Assembly (NCBI GenBank): GCA_002722455.1
Contig: PBMB01000019.1
Location: 51,855-115,854 of the forward strand
Length of the DNA: 64,000 bases
DNA from: Chloroflexota bacterium
GTDB taxonomy: Bacteria > Chloroflexota > Dehalococcoidia > Lucifugimonadales > GCA-2722455
Direction: 5' to 3'
The translations under genes were made by a program, and so were the position numbers. The notes beneath the pieces are model-generated. The model worked only from the letters and a program-made list of their open reading frames with translations. It had not been told where the DNA came from and did not search any database. Positions 2,512 through 52,282 of this stretch are shown piece by piece; the stretch's first letter is position 1, and every line of letters starts with the position of its first letter.

Positions 2512-2778
2512 ATGGCTAAATTAGTATTAAGACACATTGATTTTCGTGAAAAAATTATTGAAATTTCCGATCAAGGTATTTGGGCTGATTATGTCCGTAA
2601 TGAAGTGACCTATAGTGAATTTATTGCTATGTCTACCGAAGATCGTAAACAAATGTTCAATGAATACATTATGGACGTAGATTTTGAAGAACTTATCGAT
2701 CAAAATCGTTGGGAAGGCATTTACAAAGAAGAACCAACATTTAACGATGAATTTGTTTCTGGATACGAAGAGGAATAA
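2512..2778 (+). CDS. hypothetical acidic protein, 88 aa
   Basis: Not recognised. A small acidic soluble protein, first in a two-gene operon; the next gene begins 2 nt after its stop. Start chosen after AAAGGTTTTAAAGTT, the typical leader of this replicon. Confidence 0.7.
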   Translation: MAKLVLRHIDFREKIIEISDQGIWADYVRNEVTYSEFIAMSTEDRKQMFNEYIMDVDFEELIDQNRWEGIYKEEPTFNDEFVSGYEEE

Positions 2779-2780
2779 TA

Positions 2781-3080
2781 ATGACTAAGTCAAAAGCAAC
2801 ACTAATGGAAACACTTGTCGCACCTAGTGGCAATTATGACGCATTTACCGATTCACAAGGTTTTACCATTGTTGATTTAAATACCAGTGGTGACAATTAT
2901 TGCCATCGAGCAGAAGCCAATGCCGCATTTGTATATAAAAACCACTTAATTAGTATGTCTACTTCTGGTCTAAATCATGGTGCTTGTCGAACAAAAATTG
3001 CTATTTTTGATAAAAATCGTAAAATTGTTACTGAAACTGACACTGTTGAAGAAGCCATTGAATACTTAAACGAAATGTAA
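2781..3080 (+). CDS. hypothetical protein, 99 aa
   Basis: Not recognised. Ends with a TVEEAIEYL helix typical of small single-domain alpha/beta proteins. Translation is probably coupled to the upstream gene, whose stop is 2 nt away. A terminator follows at 3111-3139. Confidence 0.7.
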   Translation: MTKSKATLMETLVAPSGNYDAFTDSQGFTIVDLNTSGDNYCHRAEANAAFVYKNHLISMSTSGLNHGACRTKIAIFDKNRKIVTETDTVEEAIEYLNEM

Positions 3081-3110
3081 TAAATTACATTCTTGATTAA
3101 TGAAATACGA

Positions 3111-3139
3111 AAAGCCTCTTATCATCAGAGGCTTTTTTT
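3111..3139 (+). terminator. intrinsic terminator
   Basis: AAAGCCTC / GAGGCTTT stem followed by a T-run, after the 2512-3080 operon. Confidence 0.85.
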
Positions 3140-3216
3140 CTTGTTTAACATTATCCTCATTACACTGTTTTACAAAACAAGTATCCCTATTTTTTAAATA
3201 ATAAATGCGTATTCAT

Positions 3217-3247
3217 TAAAAAAAGCAGCTCAAGCTGCTTTTTTTTA
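3217..3247 (-). terminator. intrinsic terminator (bidirectional form)
   Basis: AAAAGCAGCT, a 2-nt loop and AGCTGCTTTT; the A-run on the + strand gives a T-run for the minus-strand operon ending at 3245. Confidence 0.8.
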
Positions 3248-3712
3248 AATTGCTTCCAATTCTACTGCATATCCTGTTTCTCGCCAGTTTTCATCGAGAA
3301 TTAATAAATACATTTTTCCTTCATTTCTTTGAACTTTTACAAAACCTGACTCTACTTTATTCCAGAAATGAATAGATTGAGCGTTTTTTAATTTAAAACT
3401 CATTTCTGCATACTTGCTGTCAATGCCTGTTAATACACGGATAACAATATTCATATCAGGGCTTTTGTTTATTTTATGCAAAAAGTAATCAAATGGAAAA
3501 AATGCTTTTGTTGAGGCATTTGCATATTTAAAAGAACCATTTGTACTATTCATTCGTTTTAACTTATAAACGCCCCCTTCTCTCGGTGATTTTTGGCTCG
3601 GACTTCTACGACTCTCTAATTTTTCAACAAACAAAGAATCTGTATACTCAGATACATTATTTGAATAATGTTGTTTGCCCTCTTTGTCCAAATAAACTGC
3701 AACTGTCATCAT
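3245..3712 (-). CDS. hypothetical protein, 155 aa
   Basis: Not recognised. Starts with MMTVAVYLDKEGK after AAGGAAAAA. The middle is basic and Ser-rich (residues about 33-60); the C-terminal half looks like beta strands. Second gene of a minus-strand pair; its start lies 7 nt after the stop of the 3720-4220 gene. Confidence 0.65.
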   Translation of the reverse strand: MMTVAVYLDKEGKQHYSNNVSEYTDSLFVEKLESRRSPSQKSPREGGVYKLKRMNSTNGSFKYANASTKAFFPFDYFLHKINKSPDMNIVIRVLTGIDSKYAEMSFKLKNAQSIHFWNKVESGFVKVQRNEGKMYLLILDENWRETGYAVELEAI

Positions 3713-3719
3713 TTTTTCC

Positions 3720-4220
3720 TTACATTACAGGAATCAACATTTCTGATTCTTGATTGATTACGCTCATTACCATAACCAAATCTTTATCAGTGCCTACTAC
3801 AAGAGAAACCTTATCATTGATTAAAGACTGTTCTCCCATTTTTTCACAATTCGCTTTTGCTTCTGTCTCTTTGTAGCTTAAAGTGTCACACATTGATTCA
3901 AAATCAATATGTTTCAACAGTTTTCTGGTTAACGTAAGAACCTCTTGCTTTAATTCTTCTTTACTTAATTCTTCGACCTTTGATACTGGTGGAGTCACTT
4001 CAAAGAACAAAGTTTTCTGACCATACTGATCTACTTTGATTGAATACTTTTGAACACAATCTAAATTTTTCAAGTAATTGTTTACCTTAAAATCTAAAAC
4101 TTTTGGAATAGTGATTGAAACACCGACTTTAATCATGTTCTTACTTATAAATTCTTTAATCTCTGCTTTCAGTGATTCATCTTCAATTTTATTCATAATT
4201 GACACTAATGATAATGACAT
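3720..4220 (-). CDS. hypothetical protein, 166 aa
   Basis: Not recognised. A helical N-terminus (IMNKIEDESLKAEIKEF) is followed by a mixed region and an EELSKEELKQEVL helix. First gene of the minus-strand operon, with a strong promoter and an inverted repeat over its -35 region (see those entries). Confidence 0.65.
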   Translation of the reverse strand: MSLSLVSIMNKIEDESLKAEIKEFISKNMIKVGVSITIPKVLDFKVNNYLKNLDCVQKYSIKVDQYGQKTLFFEVTPPVSKVEELSKEELKQEVLTLTRKLLKHIDFESMCDTLSYKETEAKANCEKMGEQSLINDKVSLVVGTDKDLVMVMSVINQESEMLIPVM

Positions 4221-48785: not shown

Positions 48786-48870
48786 GCGATCATGGTGGAA
48801 TTGGTAGACACAAGGGATTTAAAATCCCTCGCTATATGGCGTCCGAGTTCAAGTCTCGGTGGTCGCACCA
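48786..48870 (+). tRNA. tRNA-Leu (UAA)
   Basis: 85 nt with encoded CCA. Acceptor GCGATCA / TGGTCGC (one G-U), anticodon arm AGGGA, TTTAAAA, TCCCT with anticodon TAA, a class II variable arm and T-loop GTTCAAGTC. Copy almost identical to the gene at 50399. Confidence 0.95.
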
Positions 48871-48973
48871 AATAAAGTTGAAAAGTGAATAAAAAATCAT
48901 TTGACTCTTTGTTTGAAGGTAACTATAATTGATTACAGATAACAATAGTTATTTAAGAATTGTTTGGTTGATT

Positions 48974-49046
48974 GTTAAGTTCGTCTAGTGGTCAAGGACA
49001 CCAACCCTTCACGTTGGTAACAGTGGTTCGAATCCGCTACTTAACA
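48974..49046 (+). tRNA. tRNA-Glu (UUC)
   Basis: Acceptor GTTAAGT / ACTTAAC, anticodon arm CCAAC, CCTTCAC, GTTGG (anticodon TTC), T-arm GTGGTTCGAATCCGC. No encoded CCA, unlike its neighbours. Confidence 0.9.
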
Positions 49047-49060
49047 GTTATACATATTAT

Positions 49061-49137
49061 GCACCCTTAGCTCAGTTGGATAGAGCACGTGCCTTCTAAG
49101 CATGTGGTCGCAGGTTCGAATCCTGCAGGGTGTGCCA
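49061..49137 (+). tRNA. tRNA-Arg (UCU)
   Basis: 77 nt with encoded CCA. Acceptor GCACCCT / AGGGTGT, anticodon arm CGTGC, CTTCTAA, GCATG (TCT), T-arm GCAGGTTCGAATCCTGC. Reads AGA/AGG, codons common in this AT-rich replicon. Confidence 0.95.
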
Positions 49138-49172
49138 TCTTTAAGCACTTTTCACCAAGAGTGTTTAAAAAT

Positions 49173-49363
49173 GGTAAGGAAGGAAGGCTTTTATTCCAAT
49201 AGCTCGTAGCTATGTTCGCAGATAAGCCGTCAAATTAATAGTAGGTTAGTTAAATCCTGCCTCTCTACTTTTAAGAGGGAAAGAAGATTTACTCTGGGTG
49301 TCGAAAGCCTATTCGCAGGTTAACGAACTATTTAATGAGACTGGATGTAATTCTGCCCTTACC
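49173..49363 (+). ncRNA. folded 191-nt element inside the tRNA cluster
   Basis: GGTAAGG at 49173-49179 pairs with CCTTACC at 49357-49363 to close the element. Inside are GGCTT..AAGCC enclosing an ATAGCT / AGCTAT hairpin, CCTCT / AGAGG, and two half-units sharing TTCGCAG.T.A, then TTAAT, GG..GT, TC.TGCC. The segment GCCGTCA, then GTAGG..CCTGC, recalls the variable and T-arm of class II tRNAs. It lies 35 nt after tRNA-Arg and 10 nt before the next tRNA, so it is probably co-transcribed. No standard tRNA fold can be drawn. Confidence 0.5.
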
Positions 49364-49373
49364 TGAAATATAT

Positions 49374-49450
49374 GCTTCCTTAGCTCAGTTGGTTAGAGCG
49401 TCCGACTCATAATCGGTAGGTCACAAGTTCAAGTCTTGTAGGAAGCACCA
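49374..49450 (+). tRNA. tRNA with CAU anticodon (probably Ile2)
   Basis: 77 nt with CCA. Acceptor GCTTCCT / AGGAAGC, D-arm AGCTCAGTTGGTTAGAGC, anticodon loop CTCATAA, T-arm CAAGTTCAAGTCTTG. The CGACTCATAATCG core and CCTTAGCTCAG start resemble E. coli tRNA-Ile2 (lysidine-modified) more than tRNA-Met, but sequence alone cannot decide. Confidence 0.9.
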
Positions 49451-49481
49451 TTTTATTTAATTTTGGTTTAAAGGTATCAAG

Positions 49482-49817
49482 ATGAAAAGAATCACTCTTT
49501 TACAACAGGCTTTTCGAGAATTTCAATGTGCTTCACAATGGGTTACAAGTAATCCTAGCCGATACGTTGAATGTTTGAGCAAAGCAGAGTCAATTATCGA
49601 AATCTTAGAAATAGAAGATTGTGGATCAGTTGGCGGATTTGATAAAGAGAATAAATGTAAAGCTGTTACTGGCTTTAAACTTTATGACCGTTTTTTAACT
49701 GTTATAAGAAAAAACAATGAATATTCTGATTTGAAAGACGAATGTGAATTTACCGTTGAACTTCTTGGTGAATACTATAAGGTAATTCATAGTTTTCGAA
49801 GTGATATTTTGAGATAA
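49482..49817 (+). CDS. hypothetical protein inside the tRNA cluster, 111 aa
   Basis: Not recognised. Helical, four Cys (residues about 16, 29, 46, 58). Located 32 nt after a tRNA with AAAGGTATCAAG before the ATG, so it is probably read from the tRNA transcript. Confidence 0.65.
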   Translation: MKRITLLQQAFREFQCASQWVTSNPSRYVECLSKAESIIEILEIEDCGSVGGFDKENKCKAVTGFKLYDRFLTVIRKNNEYSDLKDECEFTVELLGEYYKVIHSFRSDILR

Positions 49818-49830
49818 TTTTTAAAATAAG

Positions 49831-49859
49831 TTGATTTCTAAAACGTTTTTAGGTATTAT
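49831..49859 (+). promoter_or_regulatory. promoter of the second half of the tRNA cluster
   Basis: TTGATT at 49831-49836, 17-bp spacer, TATTAT at 49854-49859. Confidence 0.65.
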
Positions 49860-49915
49860 ATCTTCATTAATTAACATCTTGAAAGTGTTTTTAAAAAATC
49901 AATTTTTAAAAGTTT

Positions 49916-49984
49916 AAATTGTATCTTCTAGCGGTCTAGAATACTCCGACTGTTGAAATGTTGGTTCCAATCCATCTACAATTT
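49916..49984 (+). ncRNA. tRNA-like RNA lacking one arm
   Basis: AAATTGTA / TACAATTT gives an 8-bp acceptor-like stem; TTCTAG, CGGT, CTAGAA is a D-arm-like hairpin; CCGAC, nine nt, GTTGG is an anticodon-like arm with TGA at its centre; GGTTCCAATCC is T-loop-like. The last two overlap, so only three arms can form at once. 69 nt, no CCA. Either a decayed tRNA or an armless tRNA. Confidence 0.5.
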
Positions 49985-50004
49985 AATAGTTTTTTAAACA
50001 ATAT

Positions 50005-50081
50005 GCTCCCTTAGCTCAGTTGGTTAGAGCGTCCGACTCATAATCGGTAGGTCAATGGTTCAAGTCCATTAGGGAGCACCA
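50005..50081 (+). tRNA. tRNA with CAU anticodon, second copy
   Basis: 77 nt with CCA. Acceptor GCTCCCT / AGGGAGC and T-arm AATGGTTCAAGTCCATT differ from the copy at 49374, but D- and anticodon arms are identical. Probably Ile2 as well. Confidence 0.9.
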
Positions 50082-50131
50082 TCTTTAAGACTATTTTTGA
50101 AAGTGTTTTTAAGATAAAACTTATTAAAAAT

Positions 50132-50200
50132 CGCTCTGTAAGGCTTTGTCAGGGACTCTAAATCCTACGGCAGAGGGTTCGAATCCCTCCAGAGCGACCA
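50132..50200 (+). tRNA. amber-reading tRNA (CUA anticodon), reduced D-arm
   Basis: 69 nt including CCA. Acceptor CGCTCTG / CAGAGCG with discriminator A; T-arm GAGGGTTCGAATCCCTC is perfect. The anticodon arm is GGGA, CTCTAAA, TCCT, so the anticodon is CUA with U33 and A37, reading UAG. Between acceptor and anticodon stem only about ten bases remain (AGGCTTTGTC), allowing at most a 3-bp D-stem. The identity of the charged amino acid cannot be read; a suppressor tRNA is the direct reading. Confidence 0.75.
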
Positions 50201-50215
50201 TTTTTATTTCAAGTC

Positions 50216-50262
50216 GTGCGCCCTTAGTTCAGTTGGGTGTGATACTTTTGAGCTGTGTATTT
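50216..50262 (+). pseudogene. truncated tRNA (5' half, possible UUG anticodon)
   Basis: GCGCCCTTAGTTCAGTTGGG is a clear acceptor 5' strand plus D-arm, followed by ATAC, TTTTGAG-containing loop, GTAT. No T-arm or acceptor 3' strand follows. Confidence 0.55.
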
Positions 50263-50328
50263 AATTTATTTTGCTCTTTTATAATAAAATATTACCAAAA
50301 AATGATTTAAAAATAGTTTATTTAATCC

Positions 50329-50357
50329 TTGTTATTCTTGATTATCTCAACTATAAT
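50329..50357 (+). promoter_or_regulatory. promoter of the second tRNA-Leu
   Basis: TTGTTA at 50329-50334, 17-bp spacer, TATAAT at 50352-50357. Confidence 0.65.
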
Positions 50358-50398
50358 TTCTTTATTAAATCGAGACAAGTTCTTGATTTGAAAAAAAT

Positions 50399-50483
50399 GC
50401 GGGTATGGTGGAATTGGTAGACACAAGGGATTTAAAATCCCTCGCTATTTGGCGTCCGAGTTCAAGTCTCGGTATCCGCACCA
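50399..50483 (+). tRNA. tRNA-Leu (UAA), second copy
   Basis: 85 nt with CCA, identical to the 48786 copy except in the acceptor (GCGGGTA / TATCCGC) and one base of the variable region. The matched change of both acceptor strands shows that it is under selection as a working tRNA. Confidence 0.95.
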
Positions 50484-51065: not shown

Positions 51066-51140
51066 TTGATTTTTTAATGCTAAATAGGATATACTTTATA
51101 TCAAGGCGGTAAGGGAGACCTTACGAAAAACAATAACTAA
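51066..51140 (+). promoter_or_regulatory. promoter and leader hairpin of the ncRNA array
   Basis: TTGATT (51066-51071), 18 bp, TATACT (51090-51095). The leader starts ATATCAAGGCG and folds GTAAGG, GAGA, CCTTAC, a GNRA-tetraloop hairpin. Confidence 0.65.
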
Positions 51141-51320
51141 CTTAAAGGTGATTAGATATTTGACTTGGTTGATGTCCAAGTCACAGTAATGATAGCTTAA
51201 ATTACTTGCACATAAATAAGTCGAGTATAGCCAAAAGCAACAAAAAAACAGTTTCTAACTGGCTTTTGATTACTGGTAGAGCATTAGATATTACATTATT
51301 ATTTTATAATTTTAATTTAA
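51141..51320 (+). ncRNA. structured RNA array, diverged copy 0
   Basis: Starts CTTAAAGGTGATTAGATATTT and folds GACTTGG, TTGATGT, CCAAGTC, matching the central hairpin of copies 1 and 2, and ends ATTACTGGTAGAGC as they end ATTGTTGGTAGARC. An extra 60 nt with a CAGTT / AACTG hairpin is inserted. No open frame. Confidence 0.55.
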
Positions 51321-51504
51321 AGGTGCGACACTTGATTTGGAGGTTATCTGACTCGCTTCCATTGATGTCTTAGAGTCTATAACGAACTTAAAATGGTGAA
51401 TAGATATCTGGATTGGCTGACGCCCAATTCACAACAATGAAACTTAGCTGTCCCTTATTGTTGGTAGAACGTCTGGTTATAAAATTATAATTTTTTAACT
51501 TAAA
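51321..51504 (+). ncRNA. structured RNA array, copy 1 (184 bp)
   Basis: Begins AGGTGCGACACTTGATTTGG after an internal TATAAT (51305-51310). Helices: TGGAGG / CTTCCA, GACTC / GAGTC, TCTAT / ATAGA, GGATTGG with a 7-nt loop and CCAATTC, AACAAT / ATTGTT. Differences from copy 2 keep these pairs, for example TGGAGG versus TGGAAG opposite CTTCCA. No open frame. Confidence 0.65.
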
Positions 51505-51688
51505 AGGTGCGACACTTGATTTGGAAGTTCCCTGACTCGCTTCCATTGATGTCTTAGAGTCTTCACAAAACTAGAATGGTGAATAGATATCTGGATTGGT
51601 TAACGCCCAATTCACAACAGTAAAACTTAGTTGTCCTTTATTGTTGGTAGAGCGTTTGGAATTGAACATTTATTTAATTTTGAAAACT
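51505..51688 (+). ncRNA. structured RNA array, copy 2 (184 bp)
   Basis: About 85-90% identical to copy 1 with a conserved start (AGGTGCGACACTTGATTTGG) and end (ATTGTTGGTAGAGCGT). A TATAAT-like box (51486-51491) also precedes it, so each copy may have its own promoter. Confidence 0.65.
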
Positions 51689-51830
51689 AATAGAATCGAC
51701 AGAGGCTAACGATCAAAGCCTACTCCCTATGGAATCATTTGGTTCGTTCATTGCGGAGAGTCCAGAACCAAAACCGTTCGAACTCCTACCTCCGTGTAGG
51801 AGTTTGCCGCTTTAGACGTTTTTTTGTTGC
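51689..51830 (+). ncRNA. 3' element of the array with strong terminal hairpin
   Basis: AGGCT / AGCCT hairpin, GGTTC..GAACC pairing, then AACTCCTAC, six nt, GTAGGAGTT and, after TTGCCGCTTTAGACG, seven T's. Probably the end and terminator of the array transcript. Confidence 0.5.
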
Positions 51831-51892: not shown

Positions 51893-52282
51893 ATGATTGA
51901 CACTACTGAAATTGATATCACTGACCTAATTCTTATTATCGACAAAAATCATAGACCAGAGCACCCTTCTTTGAAAGAAGTTGTTAAAGAAGAAGCGATT
52001 GATATGTTAATGTCAAATCTTCCTGAATCTTTTAAAAACTCCGCAAAGTTTCAAAAACTTATCAATAGTGATTCACCAGTTCAAGAGATACTTTTTGTTT
52101 TCTTTGGTAATCCAGATGAAGACGAACTTTCTATCGAACACCCTTACATTTCTATCGTTAATGATAAAATTGAAATGACGATCCATCATTACTATACTTG
52201 TGGGGCTAATGATGAGCTTAAAGGCGTAGATATCCTTACACACAGCTTTACATTAGAAGAATTTGAAAGCAAATTAGGATAA
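51893..52282 (+). CDS. hypothetical acidic protein, 129 aa
   Basis: The frame is open from 51824 but that part is the promoter (TTGCTT, 17 bp, TATAAT ending near 51855). ATG 51893 after AAAAGAGATTATT. Not recognised. Confidence 0.7.
   Translation: MIDTTEIDITDLILIIDKNHRPEHPSLKEVVKEEAIDMLMSNLPESFKNSAKFQKLINSDSPVQEILFVFFGNPDEDELSIEHPYISIVNDKIEMTIHHYYTCGANDELKGVDILTHSFTLEEFESKLG

Follow-up and report, generated by a model that had tools for sequence, protein, structure and literature searches.

Why phages and giant plasmids carry islands of tRNA genes is an old question, and to our knowledge no job has been found for the RNAs of such islands, such as GOLLD, ROOL and RNAs C and D of phage T4. The locus described here raises that question in a stretch of 64,000 nucleotides (the window), which forms the end of contig C19 (115,854 bp) in a genome of 2.48 Mb and 30 contigs. 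Downstream of a cluster of seven tRNA genes come an ORF of 160 codons and some 800 nt in which no long ORF is present; this latter stretch contains an array of repeats (Table 1). What does the array encode, and what might its product do? The evidence supports a structured non-coding RNA with compensated base changes, no match in Rfam and no long ORF; it is a conserved RNA sequence of about 155 nt with four helices backed by covariation, accompanied in the array by two short forms.

The original prediction described a tandem array of two copies and a diverged third. Two near-identical copies are indeed present, and the third is real, but it represents the core module alone, in extended form. 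Each 184-nt unit is made of two modules, a 5′ domain of about 70 nt and a core. Compared between units, the first halves (51310-51378 and 51494-51562) are 91% identical at a spacing of 184, and the second halves (51382-51476 and 51565-51659) are 87% identical at a spacing of 183. Copy 1 corresponds to the core, the second half of the unit, with two extra arms, and its start, AAAGGTG, merely resembles the start of the 184-nt unit. The 5′ domain of unit 2 folds, as a single strand, no better than shuffled sequence (z +0.54), and that domain is represented by just two near-identical copies.

Table 1. Positions of the tRNA cluster, the RNA copies and their parts in the window
Feature	Position	Strand	Basis
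tRNA cluster upstream of the array, 7 genes (Leu-TAA, Glu-TTC, Arg-TCT, Met/CAT x2, CTA anticodon, Leu-TAA)	48786..50483	+	ARAGORN, Rfam
Promoter-like TTGATT-18-TATACT before copy 1	51066..51095	+	9/12 consensus matches only
Copy 1, full-length RNA (H1, H2, H3, H4 and likely pseudoknot)	51142..51298	+	Covariance model R1, 173 bits (copy 1 itself in model); covariation
H1 of copy 1, 51161-51168 with 51176-51183, loop UUGAUGU 51169-51175	51161..51183	+	4/8 pairs doubly changed, 100% of cells paired
H2 of copy 1, 51184-51190/51269-51275, closing a junction with H3 (51203-51208/51222-51227) and H4 (51232-51238/51262-51268)	51184..51275	+	Covariation, RNAalifold
Likely pseudoknot, 3′ strand GCAUUAG, partner the H1 loop	51281..51287	+	93.9% of cells paired; 1/7 pairs doubly changed
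5′ domain of unit 2: GACA/TGTC, hairpin TGGAGG/CTTCCA, loop GACTC that can pair with downstream GAGTC	51319..51388	+	Sequence
Copy 2, short core (H1, H2, likely pseudoknot; without H3/H4)	51390..51486	+	60.2 bits, E 3.6e-14, model built without copy 2
5′ domain of unit 3, like unit 2 but TGGAAG/CTTCCA	51502..51570	+	Sequence
Copy 3, short core	51573..51669	+	60.5 bits, E 3e-14, model built without copy 3
Folded terminal domain, hairpin GAACTCCTAC...GTAGGAGTTT, T-run 51821-51827; possible transcript end	51690..51828	+	Fold z -2.46

That no ORF fits the array, as had been proposed, is borne out by a longest stop-free run of 66 codons within 51100-51830. A five-codon frame common to the full-length copies (AUG UCC AAN NNN CAG UAA) was rejected; both short copies read ACG in place of its AUG, and its letters are accounted for by helices H1 and H2. 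The proposed Rfam search returned tRNAs alone for the window, and in the array no score came close to the gathering threshold, in agreement with the claim that the RNA belongs to no known family, and neither a tRNA cloverleaf (RF00005) nor a tmRNA was matched in the array by ARAGORN or Rfam. The tRNA-like parts that had been remarked upon come down to the string GGTAGAGC, which is kept in six of seven distinct copies (GGTAGAAC in the remaining one); the resemblance goes no further. In the tRNA cluster itself, the gene with a CTA (amber) anticodon (50132-50200, 69 nt) has a D-arm that looks reduced by eye, and a further tRNA-like gene with that anticodon lies on another contig of the assembly, C11 (L008 10399-10475).

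The expected transcription signals fared less well. A TATAAT box had been claimed ahead of each copy. Such boxes do precede copies 2 and 3 (at 51305 and 51486), but the scan finds no two-box site there, and the window contains 112 TATAAT on its two strands, a number reached in none of 100 shuffles, which average 78; since the window is AT-rich, the presence of TATAAT before each copy means little. The site before copy 1 (Table 1) is the sole plus-strand two-box site preceding any window copy. None of the promoter scans rose above shuffles: sites numbered 4 in the window region versus 7.4 in shuffles, 3 versus 2.5 for C11 and 0 versus 3.6 for the phage contig described below. The strong hairpin predicted at the end of the array exists, within a folded domain of 139 nt (3 of 200 shuffles equally stable), but the terminator scan called no terminator at this position.

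The case for a conserved fold rests on comparison of homologues. The structure was assigned by reading the sequences, and five distinct full-length sequences were aligned with MAFFT (alignment A2); 95.9% of 193 pair cells hold, whereas slid partners give 26-44%. RNAalifold, given A2 and no hints, recovered H1, H2, H3 and H4 together with five further pairs. The covariance model R1, built from the five full-length sequences with the short copies outside it, nevertheless detects both short copies at about 60 bits (E about 3e-14). When all seven distinct sequences are aligned (A3, whose fit to R1 took no account of the pseudoknot), 95.3% of 235 cells are paired, against 27-44% with slid structures. 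Of 39 pairs, 12 have changed on both sides, and these include two pairs of H2, a helix that is invariant in A2. None of 500 shuffles reached the paired percentage, the doubly changed pairs, the doubly changed cells or the covariation score of A3, so that covariation exceeds the controls by four of five measures; the fifth, the number of pair types, was matched by 190 of 500 shuffles for A3 and by 94 of 500 for A2. Covariation among homologues, the other proposed test, is thus found in seven distinct sequences. The pairings first named within the array hold: GGATTGG/CCAATTC is H1, and TGGARG/CTTCCA is the hairpin of the 5′ domain, with a G-U pair in one copy and an A-U pair in the other. For copy 1 alone, the minimum-energy fold misses the conserved fold (z -1.23; 24 of 200 shuffles equally stable). 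Helix 6, at the tip of H4, is paired in half of its cells and is not claimed, and an outer helix proposed by eye (GAUAUU/GGUAUU) was dropped, being lost in the short copies. Among the unpaired stretches of the full-length copies, conservation is strongest in AAGGUGAUUAGAUAU (5′ end) and GGUAGAGCAUUAGGUAUU (3′ end).

It is likely, but not proven, that the H1 loop pairs with the 3′ strand as a pseudoknot, for which the support is thinner than for the helices. Loop and strand read UUGAUGU/GCAUUAG in the full-length copies and CUGACGC/ACGUCUG and UUAACGC/GCGUUUG in the short ones; 93.9% of 49 cells are paired, versus 27-49% when the strand is slid. Taken alone the pseudoknot fails to beat column shuffles, 187 of 500 of which reach its paired percentage, because its variation is confined to the two short copies.

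In total the family occupies eight places and has seven distinct sequences (two Vibrio records share one), distributed over four settings: the window, contig C11, plasmids of Vibrio and a phage contig. The C11 copy is 88% identical by blastn within the window's own genome and is flanked by a TTGATT-17-TATAAT site and a terminator-like hairpin of 14 pairs, after which comes a gene on the opposite strand. Three plasmids of Vibrio parahaemolyticus, 882-939 kb in size, contain sequences 78-79% identical over about 150 nt; the plasmid collection in which they were found lists no gene at this spot, and its tables hold no RNA genes. The Vibrio copies sit inside a tRNA array, 8 nt before tRNA-Leu, with 18 tRNA genes called around them by ARAGORN in two plasmids and 16 in a shorter stretch of the third. 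The remaining copy, from a motif scan of IMG/VR, stands 79 nt before tRNA-Arg on a contig of 124,877 bp, which is a tailed phage, since it encodes a terminase along with a portal protein and a major capsid protein of the SU10 type. The RNA is near a tRNA island in the phage contig, the plasmids and the window. Co-expression with tRNAs is nevertheless not a general rule, because the tRNA gene closest to the C11 copy is 3.9 kb away, and 658 nt with an ORF separate the window copy from the closest one there.

The family is either uncommon or limited to elements mostly missing from species-representative genomes. Model R1, run over 147 relatives and 393 genomes of the class, and model R2, run over 250 genomes from the order and 400 from the phylum (overlapping samples, searched with filters that for large sets lose weak matches), found the window's own genome only, as did blastn of 59 relatives. 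Five phage records taken from 310 with a homologous portal protein, together with T4, gave none of six with the RNA; blastn against phages returned nothing apart from three records at E 0.05 and one at E 0.2, and the short copies had no blastn match among plasmids. Pattern scans of IMG/VR yielded the one phage contig and 60 further loci, which were rejected as coding-like by eye and scored at most 23.1 bits with the model (E 0.032), compared with 80.9-178.7 bits for members; the 38 matches at E<=1 in these 60 loci come from sequences preselected for part of the motif. Pattern scans of genome contigs gave 0 and 23 matches, the best model score in the 23 loci being 18.2 bits (E 0.022). Weak model matches at CP099927 880206 (E 0.06), phage contig 60793 (E 0.24), L118 8737 (E 1.5), L008 11225 on C11 (E 0.28) and window 47905 (E 0.55) were not counted. 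No description of the window RNA was found in the open-licence literature searched.

What sort of element does the RNA travel on? A giant plasmid is a likelier source for the window than a phage, because a PHROGs scan of ten proteins from C11 and C19 gave a single marginal match, to a methyltransferase, and the terminase family PF03237 has no match in the genome; both contigs are fragments. The 882,852-bp Vibrio plasmid carries homologues of 34 of the 407 mechanical ORFs (>=70 aa) from C11 and C19, at a median amino-acid identity of 32.7% and 60% at most, against none in a reversed-sequence control, and two of the 407 have a homologue on the phage contig; of the 220 mechanical ORFs of the phage contig, five have a homologue on the Vibrio plasmid. 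A calcineurin-like phosphoesterase is one protein seen in C11/C19, the Vibrio plasmid and the phage contig, and no protein adjoining the RNA is conserved in all settings. The RNA retains 61.7-71.4% gapped identity across element types. Since tRNA genes common to the elements are conserved about equally (72-87%), the conservation of the RNA alone says nothing about its role. The window element also carries a PTS HPr gene (PF00381; 44776-45054), and C11 two SIR2-family genes (L007 16138-16857 and L008 17024-17815), the second having a homologue of 39% identity on the Vibrio plasmid.

NZ_CP097357.1, the V. parahaemolyticus plasmid of 882,852 bp (L120-L164), has 85 tRNA genes in several arrays, a tmRNA and, by annotation, an RNA 2′-phosphotransferase (KptA), an RNA ligase family protein and the replication genes dnaE, dnaB, dnaQ and ssb; the KptA of C11 is 38% identical to that of the plasmid. 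From the tRNA genes, the tmRNA, KptA and the RNA ligase family protein we suspect that the RNA travels on elements which supply tRNAs of their own and possibly repair them. Further RNA genes besides this family may lie hidden in the Vibrio tRNA array, because some of its spacers are nearly unchanged between two plasmids (22 differences in 2,043 bases at L003 4015-6736, and 106 in 860 at 2696-3938). Patchy recombination could produce the same pattern, since four CDSs near the array differ by anything from 0.7% to 5.6% between the plasmids. By eye, small T-arm-bearing sequences of the GGTTCGAGTCC type, uncalled by ARAGORN, occur between tRNA genes (L007 17810-17756 and 18140-18020, minus strand; L003 5768-5840 and 6330-6376), and a repeated RNA-like sequence, GGACAC...GTCACTCAAAAAA, looks capable of forming an H-type pseudoknot (L007 9360-9290 and 9230-9170, L008 8320-8230, minus strand).

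How do these RNAs compare with those already known from tRNA islands? GOLLD and ROOL are, like the window RNA, structured and often adjoin the tRNA islands of phages and prophages; PMC12286853 describes them as phage and prophage RNAs of unknown function, ROOL with predicted pseudoknots, and says that GOLLD binds ribosomes in pull-downs. They are longer (many GOLLD exceed 800 nt, and one ROOL is about 660 nt), and Rfam searches covering the window, its array and the tRNA region of the Vibrio plasmid gave no match to their models. The stable RNAs C and D of T4 (species 1 and 2) are, by annotation, small RNAs beside a phage tRNA cluster as well, but RNA C ends by eye in a T-arm-like stretch, unlike the window RNA. 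With filters off, R1 gave 26 matches at E<=10 in T4 69500-75000, the best at 11.5 bits and none in rnaC or rnaD, and R2 gave none at E 1 over the whole T4 record. The best reading is that the window RNA is comparable to all of these and forms a separate family.

As to function, what follows the RNA differs from one setting to the next: the terminal hairpin and a 129-aa ORF in the window, the terminator-like hairpin and an opposite-strand gene on C11, tRNA-Leu in Vibrio, tRNA-Arg in the phage. A cis-acting switch is therefore unlikely and action in trans is favored. We propose, at about an even chance of being right, that this RNA of the tRNA islands of mobile elements is stable and acts in trans, likely by binding a protein or the ribosome in the machinery for translation and tRNA upkeep that such an element imports. 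The array copies would be transcribed as stable RNAs; the helices would hold a fixed scaffold, with AAGGUGAUUAGAUAU and GGUAGAGCAUUAGGUAUU as its contact surfaces. A binding partner is suggested by the conserved unpaired ends; the nearest precedent is GOLLD, which is reported to bind ribosomes in pull-downs (PMC12286853).

Four other explanations deserve consideration. The RNA could serve counter-defense, as a decoy or inhibitor that occupies a host effector such as a tRNA-cutting nuclease and so protects the element and its tRNAs. We think this unlikely, yet it would suit an RNA found in or near tRNA islands, and RNA repair is suggested by KptA on two elements and by the RNA ligase family protein of the Vibrio plasmid. 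Phage tRNAs are proposed to evade tRNA-targeting defenses (PMC10264068), and tRNA array units of mycobacteria, which likewise reside on giant non-chromosomal replicons (linear plasmids) in another phylum, are considered putative antidefense systems (PMC12803027). A decoy should diverge fast, however, and this RNA is well conserved; moreover, the array has neither an RF00005 match nor an ARAGORN tRNA, and no target effector was found.

Somewhat less probable is a regulatory small RNA that acts in trans by pairing with mRNAs, or with the 3′ end of 16S rRNA through the Shine-Dalgarno-like 5′ motif AAGGUGAUU. The C11 copy does have a promoter-like site on one side and a terminator-like hairpin on the other, and AAGGUGAUU can form eight pairs with GGAUCACCUCC, a sequence at the 3′ end of this genome's 16S gene; but in all seven sequences that complementarity fails to exceed dinucleotide shuffles (6-76% are as good) and it is weak in the short copies and C11, while an antisense RNA needs neither four covarying helices nor invariant loops. 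We consider a cis-acting element (a riboswitch, a leader or a signal for tRNA-precursor processing) improbable: in the Vibrio plasmids and the phage the next gene after the RNA is a tRNA gene, directly downstream, but no tRNA directly follows the C11 or window copies, and no conserved class of downstream gene emerges from the four contexts.

ToxI-type RNA antitoxins consist of tandem pseudoknotted repeats of about 36 nt followed by a hairpin, with an adjacent toxin gene. The window shares tandem repeats that are probably pseudoknotted, and the hairpin, in the order promoter-like site, copies, terminal hairpin and ORF 51893-52282, but an antitoxin of a type III system is very improbable, given that no toxin gene is recognized here (the 129-aa product of that ORF has no Pfam match and is acidic, with 26 D/E and 10 K/R), that the array has no match at an Rfam gathering score, and that elsewhere the RNA precedes tRNA genes or an opposite-strand gene.

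The trans-acting RNA of tRNA islands that we prefer has practical advantages as a subject for study. The family is small, at about 155 nt, its fold is backed by covariation, and its short forms show a minimal core; the RNA is present in a phage and in plasmids of a cultured species and is thus directly testable in laboratory strains. In a larger context, we tentatively suggest, as a possibility that we rate well short of probable, that this is a new class of compact pseudoknotted RNA and works as part of a portable translation kit of giant plasmids and phages, as tRNAs and tmRNA are, that its sequence has been held while the neighboring proteins drift, and that several more RNA genes may be hidden in tRNA islands.
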